A DNA stretch of 48,268 bases, taken from positions 1 to 48,268 of the IMG/VR virus record IMGVR_UViG_3300020202_000100; one strand, written 5' to 3'. Origin of the DNA: a virus. Below, piece after piece: positions 42,787 through 48,029 of the stretch; the first letter of the stretch is position 1, and every line of letters starts with the position of its first letter. The notes below the pieces were generated by a model. That model saw only the letters and a list, made by a program, of their open reading frames with translations, made no database searches and was not told the origin of the DNA. Made by a program: the position numbers and the translations under genes.

Positions 42787-43158
42787 GTGACTAAACCAAC
42801 ATATAACTTAGGTGACTTAATCGACAAACTATCCATCTTAACAAGAAAGATTTATTTCGGCGATGAGGACTCAATAAGTGAGCATCGGTTTTTAGAGCAA
42901 GGGCTTAAGTCGTATGGGATCAATGGGAAGCTGGTCACGAACGTCATGAGGATCATGCAGATCAACGCAGAGATTTGGAACCTTGAGAATGAAATTAGGA
43001 ACGGCGGAGAGTCGAAGTTTTCGCCGACGGAGATCGGGATGAGGGCGATTAAGATTAGGGATCTCAATAGAAAGCGCATTGATTACAAGAATAAGCTCAC
43101 GGATTTGCATCGACATGGATATAGAGAGAACAAAGTTAATCATAGGTCGGAGAAATAA
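42787..43158 (+). CDS. DUF6165-like protein at the head of the cassette
   Basis: This 123-residue protein starts at GTG 42787, eight bases after AAAGGAG. The pattern LGDLIDKLSILTRKIYFGDE (near residues 8-27) and the later INAEIWNLENEIRNGG, IRDLNRKRIDYKNKL resemble DUF6165-type helical proteins often near glycosyltransferases and other sugar genes. Its stop overlaps the next gene's ATG by one base, so it belongs to the cassette. The function is unknown and the family match is by eye. Confidence 0.5.
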   Translation: MTKPTYNLGDLIDKLSILTRKIYFGDEDSISEHRFLEQGLKSYGINGKLVTNVMRIMQINAEIWNLENEIRNGGESKFSPTEIGMRAIKIRDLNRKRIDYKNKLTDLHRHGYRENKVNHRSEK

Positions 43159-43781
43159 TGGACTGGACGCCTGAGTTACTAAAGGATTACGAAGCGAATC
43201 TTTCCCTGCTCTTTGAGGAAGGAAAGATCAACTGCCCTCTTCATCTTTGCGGGGGCAATGAGACTGAGTTGATTGAGATATTTAAGGGTGTGAAGGAGAC
43301 GGACTATGTGTTTAGTACGCACCGGGCGCACTACCACTATTTATTAAAGGGCGGCGATCCGCAGCGGTTACTTGATGAGATTCTTGGAAAGGAGTCGGGG
43401 GTGTGTCAGGGAAAGGGGCGATCGATGCATATCTATGATCCTGAGCTTAGGTTTTATTCCTCGGCGATTGTCTCGGGCGTCTCCCCCATCGCTGCCGGCG
43501 TGGCCTTGAATATCAAGAAGAGAGGGCTGAGCGAGCACGTCTGGTGTTTTGTCGGAGACGGCGCGGAGGATCAGGGATCGTTTACGGAGGCCGTTAGGTT
43601 CGGAGCAGCCCGCGACCTTCCGCTCACCTTTATCGTTGAAGACAATGATTTATCAATTAACTCAACAAAAAAGCAGCGGTGGCATAACTATCAACCAATT
43701 AAAGGAAGGAACATAATCCGGTACAACTATGTCAGAACCTATCCCCATGTTGGCATTGGACGGCACATCACCATGTTCTAA
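43158..43781 (+). CDS. Thiamine-diphosphate E1-alpha-like subunit, minimal form
   Basis: This 207-residue protein has clear features of the alpha subunit of E1 dehydrogenases (pyruvate and acetoin type): HRAHYHYLLKGGDP (55-68), GKGRSMHIYDPE (85-96), and the thiamine diphosphate site GDGAEDQGS (133-141) ending in EDND (161-164, Asn163). E1 alpha proteins usually have about 320-360 residues. Here the C-terminal part is much shorter, yet it ends naturally (TYPHVGIGRHITMF). It would pair with the beta-like protein at 43922-44428 to form an active site. The substrate is unknown. It overlaps the upstream gene by one base and the zinc protein by 53. Confidence 0.85.
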   Translation: MDWTPELLKDYEANLSLLFEEGKINCPLHLCGGNETELIEIFKGVKETDYVFSTHRAHYHYLLKGGDPQRLLDEILGKESGVCQGKGRSMHIYDPELRFYSSAIVSGVSPIAAGVALNIKKRGLSEHVWCFVGDGAEDQGSFTEAVRFGAARDLPLTFIVEDNDLSINSTKKQRWHNYQPIKGRNIIRYNYVRTYPHVGIGRHITMF

Positions 43782-43974
43782 GCGTTGCTCGAAGTGCAAG
43801 AAAGATAAAGGGCTTGATGAGTTTCATAATCATACTCAGGCCAAGGACGGAAAGTATTGGTACTGCAAGGTCTGTAAGAACAGTGAGAATGACATCTACT
43901 TTATAAGGAGAAAGGTTGTCTATGCTATACAAAGAGTTGTTACATCAAGCAATGCTACGACTTGCTGGGGATGA
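43729..43974 (+). CDS. HNH-associated type zinc-knuckle protein
   Basis: This 81-residue protein contains CSKCKKDKGLDEFHNHTQ and YCKVCKN, the pattern that often precedes HNH nucleases, here with no HNH catalytic motif. It overlaps the alpha gene by 53 bases and the beta gene by about 53. Such long overlaps suggest joint translation, or a frame that is only partly real. Function unknown. Confidence 0.55.
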   Translation: MSEPIPMLALDGTSPCSKRCSKCKKDKGLDEFHNHTQAKDGKYWYCKVCKNSENDIYFIRRKVVYAIQRVVTSSNATTCWG

Positions 43975-44428
43975 GAGGGTTGTGTTTATCGGGCAGGGAC
44001 TTCTTGAGGATGAGGCTTTCTACGGAACGCTTAACGGGATTCCGAAGTCAAAGATGCTGGAGATGCCGTGCGCGGAGATCCTAAGTACGGGAGTGGCGAT
44101 TGGGCTTGCGCTTACGGGCTGGATTCCGGTGCTTTTGTTTCAGCGCATGGACTTTATGCTGCTTGCGGCGGATCAGTTGATTAATCATGCGGCGTTATTT
44201 CCCGAGATGAGCGGCGGGAAGATTAGGATTCCGATGATTATTCGGGCGTGCATCGGAAGCCGGGACATAAAGTTTGATGTCGGAAGGCAGCATCAAAAGG
44301 ATTTTTCTTCGCTGTTTGAGCCGTACATGGAGGTAACGCCTGCGATTTCTGAGGGTGCCTTTGAGATACCGGCCAAGATGAGAATGACGATTGAATGGAA
44401 GGACATGTATGGACAGCCTATTGATTGA
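43922..44428 (+). CDS. Thiamine-diphosphate E1-beta-like subunit, PYR domain only
   Basis: From ATG 43922 (AAGGAG upstream; a TTG at 43916 is also possible) the product has 168 residues. It matches the pyrimidine-binding half of E1 beta: MPCAEILSTGVAIGLALTGWIPV (48-70, with Glu52 for cofactor activation), AADQLINHA, SGGKIRIPMIIRA and RQHQKDFSS (122-130). The transketolase C-terminal domain, about 150 residues, is absent. Together with the alpha-like protein it makes a minimal two-piece enzyme. No E2 lipoyl acyltransferase is present. Overlaps the radical SAM gene by 20 bases. Confidence 0.82.
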   Translation: MLYKELLHQAMLRLAGDERVVFIGQGLLEDEAFYGTLNGIPKSKMLEMPCAEILSTGVAIGLALTGWIPVLLFQRMDFMLLAADQLINHAALFPEMSGGKIRIPMIIRACIGSRDIKFDVGRQHQKDFSSLFEPYMEVTPAISEGAFEIPAKMRMTIEWKDMYGQPID

Positions 44429-45485
44429 CAGCCATAAACTGCATCTTCATCCGGAGCGCGTCGCGCAGTGGTCGAGTGCCAGGACGATTGAGGATAAGTT
44501 GAGAGTGTTTCCGCTTTATGTGGAGGTCTCCCCTGTCGGGCATTGCAATCACAGGTGTACGTTCTGCGCGGTGGATTATATTGGGTATAAGCCGAGGTCT
44601 ATTGGCGAAGAGCAGATGAAGGAGTGCTTGTACTCAATGGCTAGAAACGGCGTGAAGTCAGTGATGTATGCCGGCGAGGGCGAGCCGCTGCTGCATAAGA
44701 GTATTACAAGGATTGTTAATGCGACAAAGGAGTACGGGATTGATGTGGCGTTTACCACAAACGGCGTCCTGATGAATGAGAGGTTTGTTGAGGAGTGCTT
44801 GCATAACGTCAGTTGGATTAAGGTGAGTTGTAATGCTGGAGATGCAAAAACGTATGCGGCGGTTCATAGGACGAAGGAGAAGGATTTCTTCGCGGTGATG
44901 AATAATATTAATTATGCGGCGGTCTGGAAGCAGGCAAATGATTTCGACGTTGCTCTTGGCGTTCAGGCGGTTGTCCTGCCGGAGAACATCCATACGATAG
45001 AGGATTTAGTTGTTGATGCCTCGATTAACGGAGCTGATTACGCGGTCTTGAAGCCGTACTCGCAGCACCACTCTTCGATTAATAAGTATGAGATTGATTA
45101 TAAGGAATGGGATGAGGTATTGGGAAGGATTGCCGAGACGCATACGAGTGAGAGCTTTCAAGTGATTTACCGCAGGACTTCGGCGCTGAAAAGTGAGGCT
45201 AATTATGGAAAATGCTACAGCACGCCGTTCATGTGGGCCTACATCATGGCGACCGGTGATGTGTATGCGTGCTCGGCCTACCTTCTCGATGAGAGGTTTA
45301 ATATAGGGAATATTAATGAGCAGTCCTTTGAGGCGATATGGCTCGGGGATAGGCGAAGAAAACTGATTGAGTACGTGGAAAATGAGCTGGATATTTCCGA
45401 GTGCCGGCTCAACTGCCGCATGGATAAGGTTAATGAGTATCAGTGGCAGATTAAACATCCGAAAGGACACGATAATTTTATATGA
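44409..45485 (+). CDS. Radical SAM protein with SPASM-like C-terminus (A)
   Basis: This 358-residue protein, counted from ATG 44409, has CNHRCTFC (Cys46, 50, 53), the iron-sulphur motif that cleaves S-adenosylmethionine, and the GEGEP motif (89-93). The C-terminal part reads YGKCYSTPFMWAYIM..., then VYACSAYLLDERFNIGNI...SFEAIW and ECRLNC, a SPASM-like set of Cys residues for extra clusters. Such enzymes modify peptides, sugars or cofactors by radical chemistry. It shares its C-terminal pattern with the protein at 45688-46833, so the two are paralogues. The overlapped start links it to the thiamine-type genes. Confidence 0.85.
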   Translation: MDSLLIDSHKLHLHPERVAQWSSARTIEDKLRVFPLYVEVSPVGHCNHRCTFCAVDYIGYKPRSIGEEQMKECLYSMARNGVKSVMYAGEGEPLLHKSITRIVNATKEYGIDVAFTTNGVLMNERFVEECLHNVSWIKVSCNAGDAKTYAAVHRTKEKDFFAVMNNINYAAVWKQANDFDVALGVQAVVLPENIHTIEDLVVDASINGADYAVLKPYSQHHSSINKYEIDYKEWDEVLGRIAETHTSESFQVIYRRTSALKSEANYGKCYSTPFMWAYIMATGDVYACSAYLLDERFNIGNINEQSFEAIWLGDRRRKLIEYVENELDISECRLNCRMDKVNEYQWQIKHPKGHDNFI

Positions 45486-45691
45486 CCATCTGTCAGTTGC
45501 TCACGCTTCTTTACAAAAGATCGGTAATCGATCAAAGAGAAGAAGATGCGGGCATGTTGGAGAGTTGCTACATCATGGCCAAGAAGATGAATAAGAGACT
45601 TTCGGAGTACGCCGGTCTTGAAATTTCCCCAAAAGAAGTTGAAGAAGTTTGGCTTAACGAATTAAGGGTTACAGCAGAAAGGAACAAATGA
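45482..45691 (+). CDS. Small protein between two radical SAM genes
   Basis: MTICQLLTLLYKRSVIDQREEDAGML is followed by KMNKRLSEYAGLEISPKEVEEVWLNELR: a 69-residue helical protein. The gene overlaps its neighbours by 4 bases on both sides. It might be a partner or a peptide substrate, but no motif shows this. Confidence 0.5.
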   Translation: MTICQLLTLLYKRSVIDQREEDAGMLESCYIMAKKMNKRLSEYAGLEISPKEVEEVWLNELRVTAERNK

Positions 45692-46833
45692 GCATATCTG
45701 AACTGAGCAAGGATCATATTGACCGGATTCTGGACGGCACAAAGATTAATTGGTATGTGGACAGAGTGGCTGCCTGGGAACGCGGAGAGCGGATTGCGCC
45801 GGTAACGATTGATATGGCGCTTACCACCACCTGTAACATGGCCTGCGAATTCTGTTATCGCTATCTTCAGCACAACACCTACTACAAAATAACCAAAGAT
45901 CACATGACGCGATTTCTCGATGACTGCGCTGAGATCGGCGTGAAAGGAGTCAGCCTTGTATCTGACGGTGAGAGCTCGATTAGTCCTGCGTATCGCCACA
46001 GTATTGAATATGGCCATTCACTTGGTCTCAGCATGGCAAGCGGAACAAATGCTTACCTCCTACGGGGTGAGTTACTTGACGCAGTATTTCCTAAACTTAC
46101 TTATCTTCGCGTTAACATTTCCGCCGGAGAAGAAGACAGATACAACGAGATCATGGGCGCGAAGGGCGATATGTTCCAACAAGTTTGCTCGAACATTCGC
46201 CAAATGGTTAGGATGAAACGATCAGGAATAAGTAATTGTACGGTAGGAATGCAAATGGTCTTTAAGCCGGACTATGAAGACCAGCTCATTCCCCTGGCCA
46301 AGCTCGCCGTGGAACTCGAAGCCGATTACCTTGTTATTAAACATTGTTCCGATGATGAGTTCGGGACGCTAGGAGTTAATTATGGGGACTACGAAAAAAC
46401 GTATCCGACGCTCAGGGCAGCCGAAGCACTCTCAAATGAGAAGACGGTCATTAAGGTTAAGTGGTCAAAGATCAATGAGTGTACGTTTGAAGGAGCTGTG
46501 CGGAGCTACCAGCGATGCTACGGGACGCCGTTCCTACTTCAAATTTCCGGAACTGGACTTGTTGCTCCCTGCGGTATGCTCTTTAACGATCGGTACAAAG
46601 AACTCTATCATATTGGGAATATTACGGAAAGGTCGTTCAAGGAGATCTGGAGCTCGGAAAGATACTGGGAAGTTGTAAAGAGGCTGGCAAGCCCTGAGTT
46701 TGACGCACAGACCATGTGCGGTTCGCTCTGCCTTCAGCATAGCGTTAACAAGGCTCTCGACAATCACGTTAAGGGAATAAGAAAGATCGAGCCGGCAACC
46801 GAAGCGTTTCCGCTTCACGGGAGTTTTGTATGA
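45688..46833 (+). CDS. Radical SAM protein with SPASM-like C-terminus (B)
   Basis: This 381-residue protein has CNMACEFCYRYL (Cys49, 53, 56) after a short helical lead, and a SAM-binding VSDGESS where GGEP would be. The C-terminal part YQRCYGTPFLLQIS, LVAPCGMLFNDRY, HIGNITERSFKEIW and MCGSLCLQH matches paralogue A in order. The extra Cys residues could hold auxiliary iron-sulphur clusters. Substrate unknown; probably acts with A on the same target. Confidence 0.85.
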   Translation: MSISELSKDHIDRILDGTKINWYVDRVAAWERGERIAPVTIDMALTTTCNMACEFCYRYLQHNTYYKITKDHMTRFLDDCAEIGVKGVSLVSDGESSISPAYRHSIEYGHSLGLSMASGTNAYLLRGELLDAVFPKLTYLRVNISAGEEDRYNEIMGAKGDMFQQVCSNIRQMVRMKRSGISNCTVGMQMVFKPDYEDQLIPLAKLAVELEADYLVIKHCSDDEFGTLGVNYGDYEKTYPTLRAAEALSNEKTVIKVKWSKINECTFEGAVRSYQRCYGTPFLLQISGTGLVAPCGMLFNDRYKELYHIGNITERSFKEIWSSERYWEVVKRLASPEFDAQTMCGSLCLQHSVNKALDNHVKGIRKIEPATEAFPLHGSFV

Positions 46834-47021
46834 TTAAAAACATGAAGTTAGTCTGTTCAAAATGCAGGATTGATCTTGTTCCTGATAATACCTATTTTCT
46901 TTCAAACGGCGATAAGACGGCAACGGTAAAGACGAACTGCTGCGGAGTGAATGCGGTTCTTAAGAATGATAATTGGTTTAGAAAGATGGGGAGACTATGC
47001 AAGCATCTCTTAAGCCGTTAG
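46830..47021 (+). CDS. Small zinc-type Cys protein between radical SAM genes
   Basis: The 63-residue product reads MIKNMKLVCSKCRIDLVPDN, then NCCGVNAVLKNDNWFRKMG, and CKHLLSR. Five Cys residues, one CxxC and one CC. It overlaps gene B by 4 bases and radical SAM gene C by 25. It may be a partner, a metal carrier or a peptide substrate. Confidence 0.5.
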   Translation: MIKNMKLVCSKCRIDLVPDNTYFLSNGDKTATVKTNCCGVNAVLKNDNWFRKMGRLCKHLLSR

Positions 47022-47881
47022 CGATTCCGGAAGAATATAACTATGTCGCGTGCTTCCTAACGCTCGCCTGCAACCTCAAGTGTAGTTACTGCATCAATAT
47101 TATGAATGATTATGACAGGAGAAAGATTCATCATGGGCGGCCGCCCCTGTCGGCAAGCGACTGGATTAATGCGCTTAATCGTATCGAGGCGCGGGAGGAT
47201 TTGCCGATTACGCTTCAGGGCGGTGAACCAACGGTGCATCCTGACTTCTACGCTATTGTTAATGGCGTTCATAAGCCCATGGATTTACTTACCAACTGTC
47301 AATTTGATATTGATCGTTTTATTAAGGAGGTTCCTGTTACGAAGTTTAAACGCTCGGCTCCGTATGCGTCGATACGGGTTAGTTATCACCCTGAACAGAT
47401 GGAGCTCGAAGATACCGTGTTTCGAGTCGCAAAGCTTATCTCTTGCGGCTATCAGGTGGGCGTGTGGTCGGTCTTGGTTCCGAGATGGGAAGATCACATT
47501 TTGAATTCTGCGAAGAGAAAGTTCGTGGAGGCCGGCATTGATTTTAGAGTCAAGGAGATGCTGGACGGAGGAACGGAGGACGGGACGCAGTGCGGGACGT
47601 ATAAGTATCCGGATGCTGTGGGGGCGAAGGTCTTGCGTTCGTGCGAATGCCGAACGACTGAGCTCTTGATTGCACCTGATGGATCGGTTCATCGCTGCCA
47701 CTCAGATATTTACAACCTTCGGAAAGGTATCGGCCACATCATGGATGAGGAGTTCCGGCTTGACCGTGAGTTTAGGACTTGCCATGTCTATGGCGATTGC
47801 AGCGGGTGTGACGTGAAGATTACGACTAATAGGTTTCAGCAGCAGAACTGGACAAGCGTGGAGATCATCAATGTCAGATAA
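46997..47881 (+). CDS. Radical SAM protein (C)
   Basis: This 294-residue protein has CNLKCSYCIN (Cys25, 29, 32), LQGGEPTVHP (73-82), and a C-terminal series SCECRTTELLIAPDGSVHRCHSD, then CHVYGDCSGCDVKI, so auxiliary clusters are likely. It is less similar to A and B and ends with a natural terminus. The fold and Cys pattern suggest a SPASM/twitch-type enzyme. Its gene overlaps the small Cys gene before it and the next gene by 11 bases. Confidence 0.85.
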   Translation: MQASLKPLAIPEEYNYVACFLTLACNLKCSYCINIMNDYDRRKIHHGRPPLSASDWINALNRIEAREDLPITLQGGEPTVHPDFYAIVNGVHKPMDLLTNCQFDIDRFIKEVPVTKFKRSAPYASIRVSYHPEQMELEDTVFRVAKLISCGYQVGVWSVLVPRWEDHILNSAKRKFVEAGIDFRVKEMLDGGTEDGTQCGTYKYPDAVGAKVLRSCECRTTELLIAPDGSVHRCHSDIYNLRKGIGHIMDEEFRLDREFRTCHVYGDCSGCDVKITTNRFQQQNWTSVEIINVR

Positions 47882-48029
47882 GAAGAGAGAGATAAAGATT
47901 GAGCGCGGCGTAACGGACGTAAACAACGTGCTTAATCATCTTAGTAATGTAGAGAAGAGTGAGCGGAAAAAGGCTTGGCTTAAAGAGTATTATGAAAAGA
48001 ATGCAAGGCGAAAGGAAACTAATGATTAA
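47871..48029 (+). CDS. Hypothetical 52-residue basic helical protein
   Basis: MSDKKREIKIERGVTDVNNVLNHLSNVEKSERKKAWLKEYYEKNARRKET is charged and helical. It starts inside radical SAM C and ends inside the next gene. Function unknown; the tight overlaps argue that it is part of the same operon. Confidence 0.5.
   Translation: MSDKKREIKIERGVTDVNNVLNHLSNVEKSERKKAWLKEYYEKNARRKETND

Follow-up and report, generated by a model that had tools for sequence, protein, structure and literature searches.

The DNA analysed here (the window, 48,268 bp) is the whole of a linear IMG/VR virus record, IMGVR_UViG_3300020202_000100, and belongs to a tailed phage; its minus strand encodes the terminase, portal and major head protein at 19-25 kb, and from 26 kb onward its plus strand encodes the integrase and DNA-metabolism proteins. 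At the right end of the record, a cassette (42787-47881) encodes a DUF4254-like protein, an E1-alpha-like and an E1-beta-like protein, and three radical S-adenosylmethionine (SAM) proteins (rSAM1, rSAM2 and rSAM3), with three small open reading frames (ORFs) interspersed. As an earlier first-pass annotation of this DNA had described, the genes form a co-directional set; all of them were present and open on the plus strand, overlapping or abutting one another, and Shine-Dalgarno-like stretches lie upstream of the main start codons. Since the record ends 387 bases past the end of rSAM3, the operon may extend further.

The E1-alpha-like protein (207 aa; 43158..43781) matched Pfam E1_dh (7e-24) and carries the thiamine diphosphate (ThDP) motif GDG-X27-N. 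Its profile match to human E1-alpha in the Protein Data Bank (PDB) ends at residue 212 of 365, and the protein consists of the ThDP-binding PP domain only, stopping after ca. 205 residues with a conserved Y-PH motif of its own. The cofactor site had been noticed before; the shortening had been ascribed to the E1-beta-like protein alone, and this must be corrected to include E1-alpha. The E1-beta-like protein (168 aa; 43922..44428) is, as proposed, reduced to the PYR domain: its Transket_pyr score (6.6e-6) was just below the gathering cut-off, it matched the E1-beta profile PRK09212 (5.6e-16), a separate profile match to E1-beta in the PDB covered residues 1-177 of ca. 330 only, and its catalytic Glu (Glu52) was invariant in nine relatives. 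In a model of the naturally occurring fused form, the beta half superposed on residues 1-176 of pyruvate dehydrogenase E1-beta (Z 20). Every lineage lacked the last third of E1-alpha and the C-terminal domain of E1-beta. Since this truncation is universal and the Y-PH end is conserved, the pair, hereafter mini-E1, has a defined shape and is not a broken gene. We know of no smaller E1-type ThDP enzymes.

Mini-E1 shares the GDG motif of the PP domain and the catalytic Glu of the PYR domain with the E1 components of 2-oxo-acid dehydrogenases, and its best sequence matches were of the E1 type, not of the decarboxylase family. It differs from these E1 components in lacking the transketolase C-terminal domain and the last third of E1-alpha, and in having no E2 encoded nearby. 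Transketolase_C (PF02780) was not found anywhere in the record, and no lipoyl domain (Biotin_lipoyl) was detected in the window record or in 30 viral records, while the positive controls were recovered in 14 of 14 genomes; the absence of an E2 gene noted in the first-pass annotation was thus borne out. The title of PDB entry 1ols refers to His291-alpha of human branched-chain 2-oxo-acid dehydrogenase as the acyl-transfer His, which lies in the C-terminal third of E1-alpha. The match of mini-E1-alpha ends before this residue, and the region bearing it is missing.

The three proteins with CxxxCxxC motifs proved to be radical SAM proteins, as had been supposed; in each of them the CX3CX2C motif lies within the radical SAM domain. 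rSAM1 (44409..45485; Radical_SAM 2.9e-17, SPASM 1.9e-10) and rSAM2 (45688..46833; Radical_SAM 1.6e-11, SPASM 9.9e-9) have a twitch-type auxiliary domain, and rSAM3 (46997..47881; Radical_SAM 4.4e-6, just below the gathering cut-off) is short. Four further conserved Cys are present in rSAM1 (CX18C...CX3C), in rSAM2 (CX17C...CX3C) and in a fourth protein found in relatives, rSAM4, and six in rSAM3. A scan with the single rSAM2 protein gave no matches, and alignment-based scans were needed. In profile searches of the PDB, rSAM1 matched SkfB (5.4e-12), BtrN (1.1e-11, second best), MoaA and BlsE. By structure, the rSAM1 model came closest to SkfB, SuiB, DesII and BlsE (Z 20-23), with BtrN at Z 15.4. 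Since several different enzymes match this model, the fold alone cannot fix the reaction of rSAM1. Matches to the PADLOC pVip profiles (best 9.5e-21) were partial and confined to the core domain, and a viperin or defence identity was rejected. BtrN, whose reaction turns an alcohol group of a cyclitol into a ketone, has a single auxiliary cluster with four Cys (PMC9012708). BtrN, DesII and BlsE share with rSAM1 the CX3CX2C core and a four-Cys auxiliary site, together with profile and fold matches, but the identity over the model is only ca. 18%, and rSAM3 differs from them by its six further Cys.

The five enzymes (E1-alpha, E1-beta, rSAM1, rSAM2 and rSAM3) co-occur in the window, in two other viral loci (L149 and L152), in a Desulfobacterales locus (L023) and in an archaeal locus of the Nanoarchaeota group (L141). 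The gene order in L023 is GT2-rSAM3-rSAM1-E1a-E1b-rSAM2, where GT2 is a family 2 glycosyltransferase, and its contig also carries lptB, rpoN and a signal peptidase I gene. Identities between the window and L023 were 51% for E1-alpha, 44% for E1-beta, 40% for rSAM1, 51% for rSAM2 and 39% for rSAM3, and rSAM2 was 53% identical to its Nanoarchaeota copy. In phylogenetic trees, each radical SAM protein of the window grouped with its own cellular orthologue (support 100/99 for rSAM1, 100/99 for rSAM2 and 100/100 for rSAM3), the rSAM1 clade (100/99) consisting of Desulfobacterales, Nanoarchaeota-group and viral proteins. The recurrence of the five enzymes is not due to chance, and the set is conserved but not phage-specific. 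Conservation of gene order in related phages had been named as a check: the gene content was kept across loci and the order was shuffled. The earlier suggestion of a phage-specific product does not hold, because orthologues of all five enzymes sit on cellular chromosomes.

A scan of viral contigs found rSAM3 in 57 loci, which gave 36 lineages with enough flanking sequence. Eighteen of these carry mini-E1, 11 carry a split transketolase, seven carry neither and none carries both (hypergeometric P ca. 5e-5, ignoring descent). A minimal ThDP pair therefore stands beside rSAM3 in 29 of the 36 lineages, and, together with the recurring five-enzyme sets, this supports the earlier proposal that the ThDP and radical SAM proteins serve a single pathway. 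The split transketolase is mostly truncated as well, with ca. 245 aa in its PP protein and, in most cases, ca. 150-200 aa in its PYR protein. Since E1 and transketolase both form a two-carbon carbanion on ThDP, transfer of a two-carbon (C2) unit is the simplest job common to the two. Four viral loci (L181, L187, L192 and L195) have rSAM2 and rSAM3 with a class I/II aminotransferase and no ThDP gene; by Pfam, L187 additionally contains GT4, cytidylyltransferase and LicD genes, with similar proteins in the other three. They represent a sister pathway and may show what rSAM2 and rSAM3 do alone.

A second substitution concerns rSAM4. The commonest viral arrangement, seen in 52 loci, is GT2-X-E1b-rSAM4-E1a (L004, for example), in which X is a protein designated GT9like. 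In L010, a zinc alcohol dehydrogenase (ADH; Pfam ADH_N 2.5e-15) occupies the rSAM4 slot in the order GT9like-E1b-ZnADH-E1a, and in L009 the ADH is placed after E1a. Most fused E1ab genes adjoin an ADH gene; an archaeal fused gene (L143) adjoins rSAM4. Among 39 E1 lineages or representatives, 20 have rSAM1, rSAM2 or rSAM4, eight have ADH and none has both (P ca. 0.001); an exchange within the same slot was seen once. The presence of ADH requires at least two changes on the E1-alpha tree. One family of short-chain dehydrogenases/reductases (SDR) was found beside E1, but never in a locus lacking both ADH and rSAM4. The exchange of rSAM4 and the zinc enzyme and the profile match of rSAM1 to BtrN suggest an alcohol-to-ketone oxidation.

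Genes for sugar metabolism surround many of the relatives. The cellular ones adjoin genes for HddA-, HddC-, HldE-, GmhA-, GmhB- and KpsF-like enzymes and epimerases, and lie near a gene for an aminotransferase-fold protein closest to RfbH; the HddA, HddC and RfbH matches fall below curated cut-offs. The cyanophage copies sit within clusters of epimerase, kinase, heptose-isomerase and glycosyltransferase genes, and the L004 type is found with GT2 amid virion structural genes. A glycosyltransferase gene was near rSAM3 in 24 of 44 cases, a purely descriptive count. An E1 pair without E2 amid sugar genes is thus seen in relatives and in cells; in the window itself, no sugar gene or glycosyltransferase gene was recognised. 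Two further conserved neighbours of the cassette are glycosyltransferase-like by eye, namely GT9like (L004 5622-6386, ca. 254 aa) and a protein of L187 (9828-10502, ca. 224 aa) whose family members, in several lineages, start at the stop codon of rSAM3. GT9like and the proteins designated GTx had no Pfam match and were not counted as proven glycosyltransferases.

Scanning with the E1-alpha alignment identified mini-E1-alpha in 524 viral contigs, of which 80 were kept, and in 17 loci on cellular contigs, 14 of which were matched over nearly the full length; the E1 comparison set comprised 104 loci, or 35 lineages at 70% identity. Known carriers are a 735-kb megaphage and the cyanophages S-SM2 and P-TIM68, in which the gene is fused and annotated as transketolase. 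Mini-E1-alpha corresponds to one half of phrog_34187 and E1-beta to the other: the 'transketolase central region' proteins of S-SM2 and P-TIM68 are fused E1a-E1b proteins of the mini-E1 family, with no function assigned in PHROGs, and unlike the window pair they adjoin a zinc ADH rather than radical SAM genes. Among cellular genomes, mini-E1 was found in 21 of 285 Omnitrophota genomes and in six of 279 genomes of the Nanoarchaeota phylum, with almost no further homologues in the genomes sampled from the phyla of the Desulfobacterales and Kaiserbacteria. A second mini-E1 clade (L024, L028, L030-L035, L094, L098, L011 and L013) has mostly GDM, and twice GEM, in place of GDG; in cells it adjoins HddA/HddC-like, epimerase, RfbH-like and B12-binding radical SAM genes, and L011 adjoins thyX and an RNA ligase gene. 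Matches in 'Acinetobacter phage MD-2021a' (CAKLQH020000018.1 and CAKLQF020000010.1; L018) were rejected as phage relatives, as they represent a bacterial aco operon with E2; these contigs carry acoABC, trpB, aroC and similar genes and resemble host chromosome.

The remaining genes of the cassette are small. At its start, where the first-pass annotation had rightly placed the boundary and left the gene unnamed, lies the DUF4254-like gene (123 aa, GTG start; 42787..43158; Pfam DUF4254 0.0022, below the cut-off). Its phmmer homologues occur in 36 fetched loci, mostly adjoining E1 or transketolase and rSAM3, and it is linked to radical SAM/ThDP cassettes by context. A zinc-finger ORF (81 aa; 43729..43974; PHROG endonuclease VII zinc finger 2.6e-9) lies between the E1 halves, a 69-aa ORF (45482..45691) that is not conserved between rSAM1 and rSAM2, and a 63-aa Cys-containing ORF (46830..47021), also not conserved, between rSAM2 and rSAM3. 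The small Cys proteins had been counted as cassette members; they are present, but neither the zinc-finger ORF nor the 63-aa ORF had a homologue in any fetched locus, and the former is outside the conserved enzyme set. A 52-aa ORF (47871..48029) overlapping the end of rSAM3 has homologues in seven loci of the nearest relatives and is probably the start of the next module.

E1-alpha/beta-like pairs without E2 are known from sugar clusters. AviB1/AviB2 and Pau11/Pau12 are such pairs for two-carbon branches (PMC4425429, PMC4753412), KbDH-alpha/beta ligated pyruvate to sugar-ketone analogues in vitro without E2, and split-gene transketolases have been proposed to place a C2 branch onto a keto-sugar in miharamycin and amipurimycin (PMC12247030). 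In the AviB, Pau and KbDH systems, a C2 unit from pyruvate is added, or proposed to be added, to a keto-sugar (PMC12247030, PMC4425429, PMC4753412). Known subunits of this kind have their full length, as in the paulomycin cluster (pau11 325 aa, pau12 345 aa), compared with ca. 205 and ca. 170 aa in mini-E1. Unlike these pairs, mini-E1-alpha is cut after an ENN-like motif, no transketolase C-terminal domain is present, and the partners are radical SAM proteins. To our knowledge, no radical SAM partner has been described for AviB1/AviB2, Pau11/Pau12, KbDH or the split transketolases. The miharamycin/amipurimycin enzymes resemble the truncated split transketolases that occupy the mini-E1 slot in sister phages, whereas the window enzyme is of the E1 type; both functions are predicted only. 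YerE of yersiniose biosynthesis carries out ThDP-dependent C2 branching of a keto-deoxysugar in lipopolysaccharide (LPS), and one clade of mini-E1 has an RfbH-like protein as a neighbour; YerE is, however, a single ThDP-dependent flavoprotein of the decarboxylase superfamily and not of the E1 type.

Based on these results, we give about an even chance to the hypothesis that the cassette encodes a branched-sugar pathway, for a nucleotide sugar or a glycan, built around a minimal two-domain ThDP carboligase. We infer its substrate, donor, order of reactions, product and biological use as follows. A twitch-type radical SAM enzyme would catalyse a redox reaction of a sugar, most likely converting a hydroxyl to a ketone, as BtrN does. 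Mini-E1 would use ThDP to decarboxylate a 2-oxo acid, for instance pyruvate, and, without an E2 acceptor, would add the two-carbon acyl anion to the sugar carbonyl, yielding a branched or chain-extended sugar. The remaining radical SAM enzymes, and in relatives also the SDR, would tailor the product, and phage or host glycosyltransferases may attach it to a glycan, with an altered host surface or a decorated virion as possible outcomes. Several observations weigh against this hypothesis. No GT2 or related glycosyltransferase was recognised in the window or in its closest relatives, the latter being fragmentary, and in them the cassette sits within the DNA-metabolism half, with Sak4-like and PDDEXK genes as neighbours. 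Exchange with ADH was shown for rSAM4 and not for rSAM1-3 of the window. Seven of the 36 rSAM3 lineages have no ThDP gene at all, and in L154 (6897-9020) a truncated transketolase gene pair is accompanied by a second, longer pair that has the C domain. The lineages are not independent and their counts are uncorrected for descent, and the predicted-structure models have middling confidence (pLDDT 68 and 71).

Of the products guessed in the first-pass annotation, a sugar nucleotide fits the neighbourhoods best, a modified base is weakly supported and a peptide is disfavoured. A hypermodified DNA base or free nucleotide protecting the phage DNA would suit the genomic position of the window-clade cassette and the lack of a recognised glycosyltransferase there. 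It is nevertheless improbable, since cellular orthologues of all five enzymes lie beside GT2 and LPS-export genes, other viral versions stand amid structural genes with glycosyltransferases, and the cassette has no nucleotide-modification kinase or thymidylate-type enzyme. Very little probability attaches to maturation of a small-ORF ribosomal peptide by the radical SAM/SPASM proteins with the ThDP genes incidental: the rSAM1 model is closest in structure to SPASM maturases such as SkfB and SuiB, and small ORFs lie between the cassette genes, but these ORFs are not conserved while the enzymes are, the ThDP genes are linked in most rSAM3 lineages, and DesII, BlsE and viperin-type enzymes match the rSAM1 model nearly as well as the SPASM maturases.

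Two other explanations take mini-E1 to act separately from the radical SAM proteins. It could be a simple 2-oxo-acid decarboxylase or acyloin synthase, supplying a small aldehyde or alcohol, reduced by ADH or SDR, that decorates a glycan. Its PP+PYR build without a third domain resembles ComDE, the two-subunit sulfopyruvate decarboxylase; ADH and SDR are neighbours; and the rSAM2/rSAM3 loci without E1 contain aminotransferase, cytidylyltransferase and LicD genes. We regard this as unlikely, as the sequence is of the E1 type and C2 transfer accounts better for the replacement by a split transketolase, an enzyme that does not normally decarboxylate 2-oxo acids. A phosphonate route was rejected, no phosphoenolpyruvate mutase being found in 30 records. 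Carbon shuffling in host central metabolism by an ordinary auxiliary metabolic gene would agree with the transketolase annotation of the cyanophage homologues. This is a poor candidate, given that neither half has the third domain in any of the E1 lineages and that the cyanophage genes lie inside epimerase/heptose/glycosyltransferase clusters and not among carbon-metabolism genes.

The combination of mini-E1 with radical SAM proteins seems to be undescribed; a full-text search of a partial literature collection returned no text combining phage, radical SAM, pyruvate dehydrogenase, sugar and transketolase. With slightly less confidence than in the branched-sugar pathway, we propose that the cassette belongs to an undescribed, exchangeable module that phages share with bacteria and archaea. 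In this module, minimal two-domain ThDP enzymes from two superfamilies, E1 and transketolase, would stand in for each other and would be coupled to radical SAM proteins, for which a zinc ADH would substitute in turn; the module may make branched or chain-extended sugars of new structure for host or virion glycans. This suggests a function for the widespread phage family phrog_34187 and for hundreds of environmental viral contigs, and links E1-type ThDP enzymes to radical SAM chemistry. The two natural substitution experiments, E1 for transketolase and radical SAM protein for zinc dehydrogenase, predict a chemistry that can be tested at the bench. Phages thus carry pathways, probably for rare sugars, that are common to poorly known bacteria and archaea.

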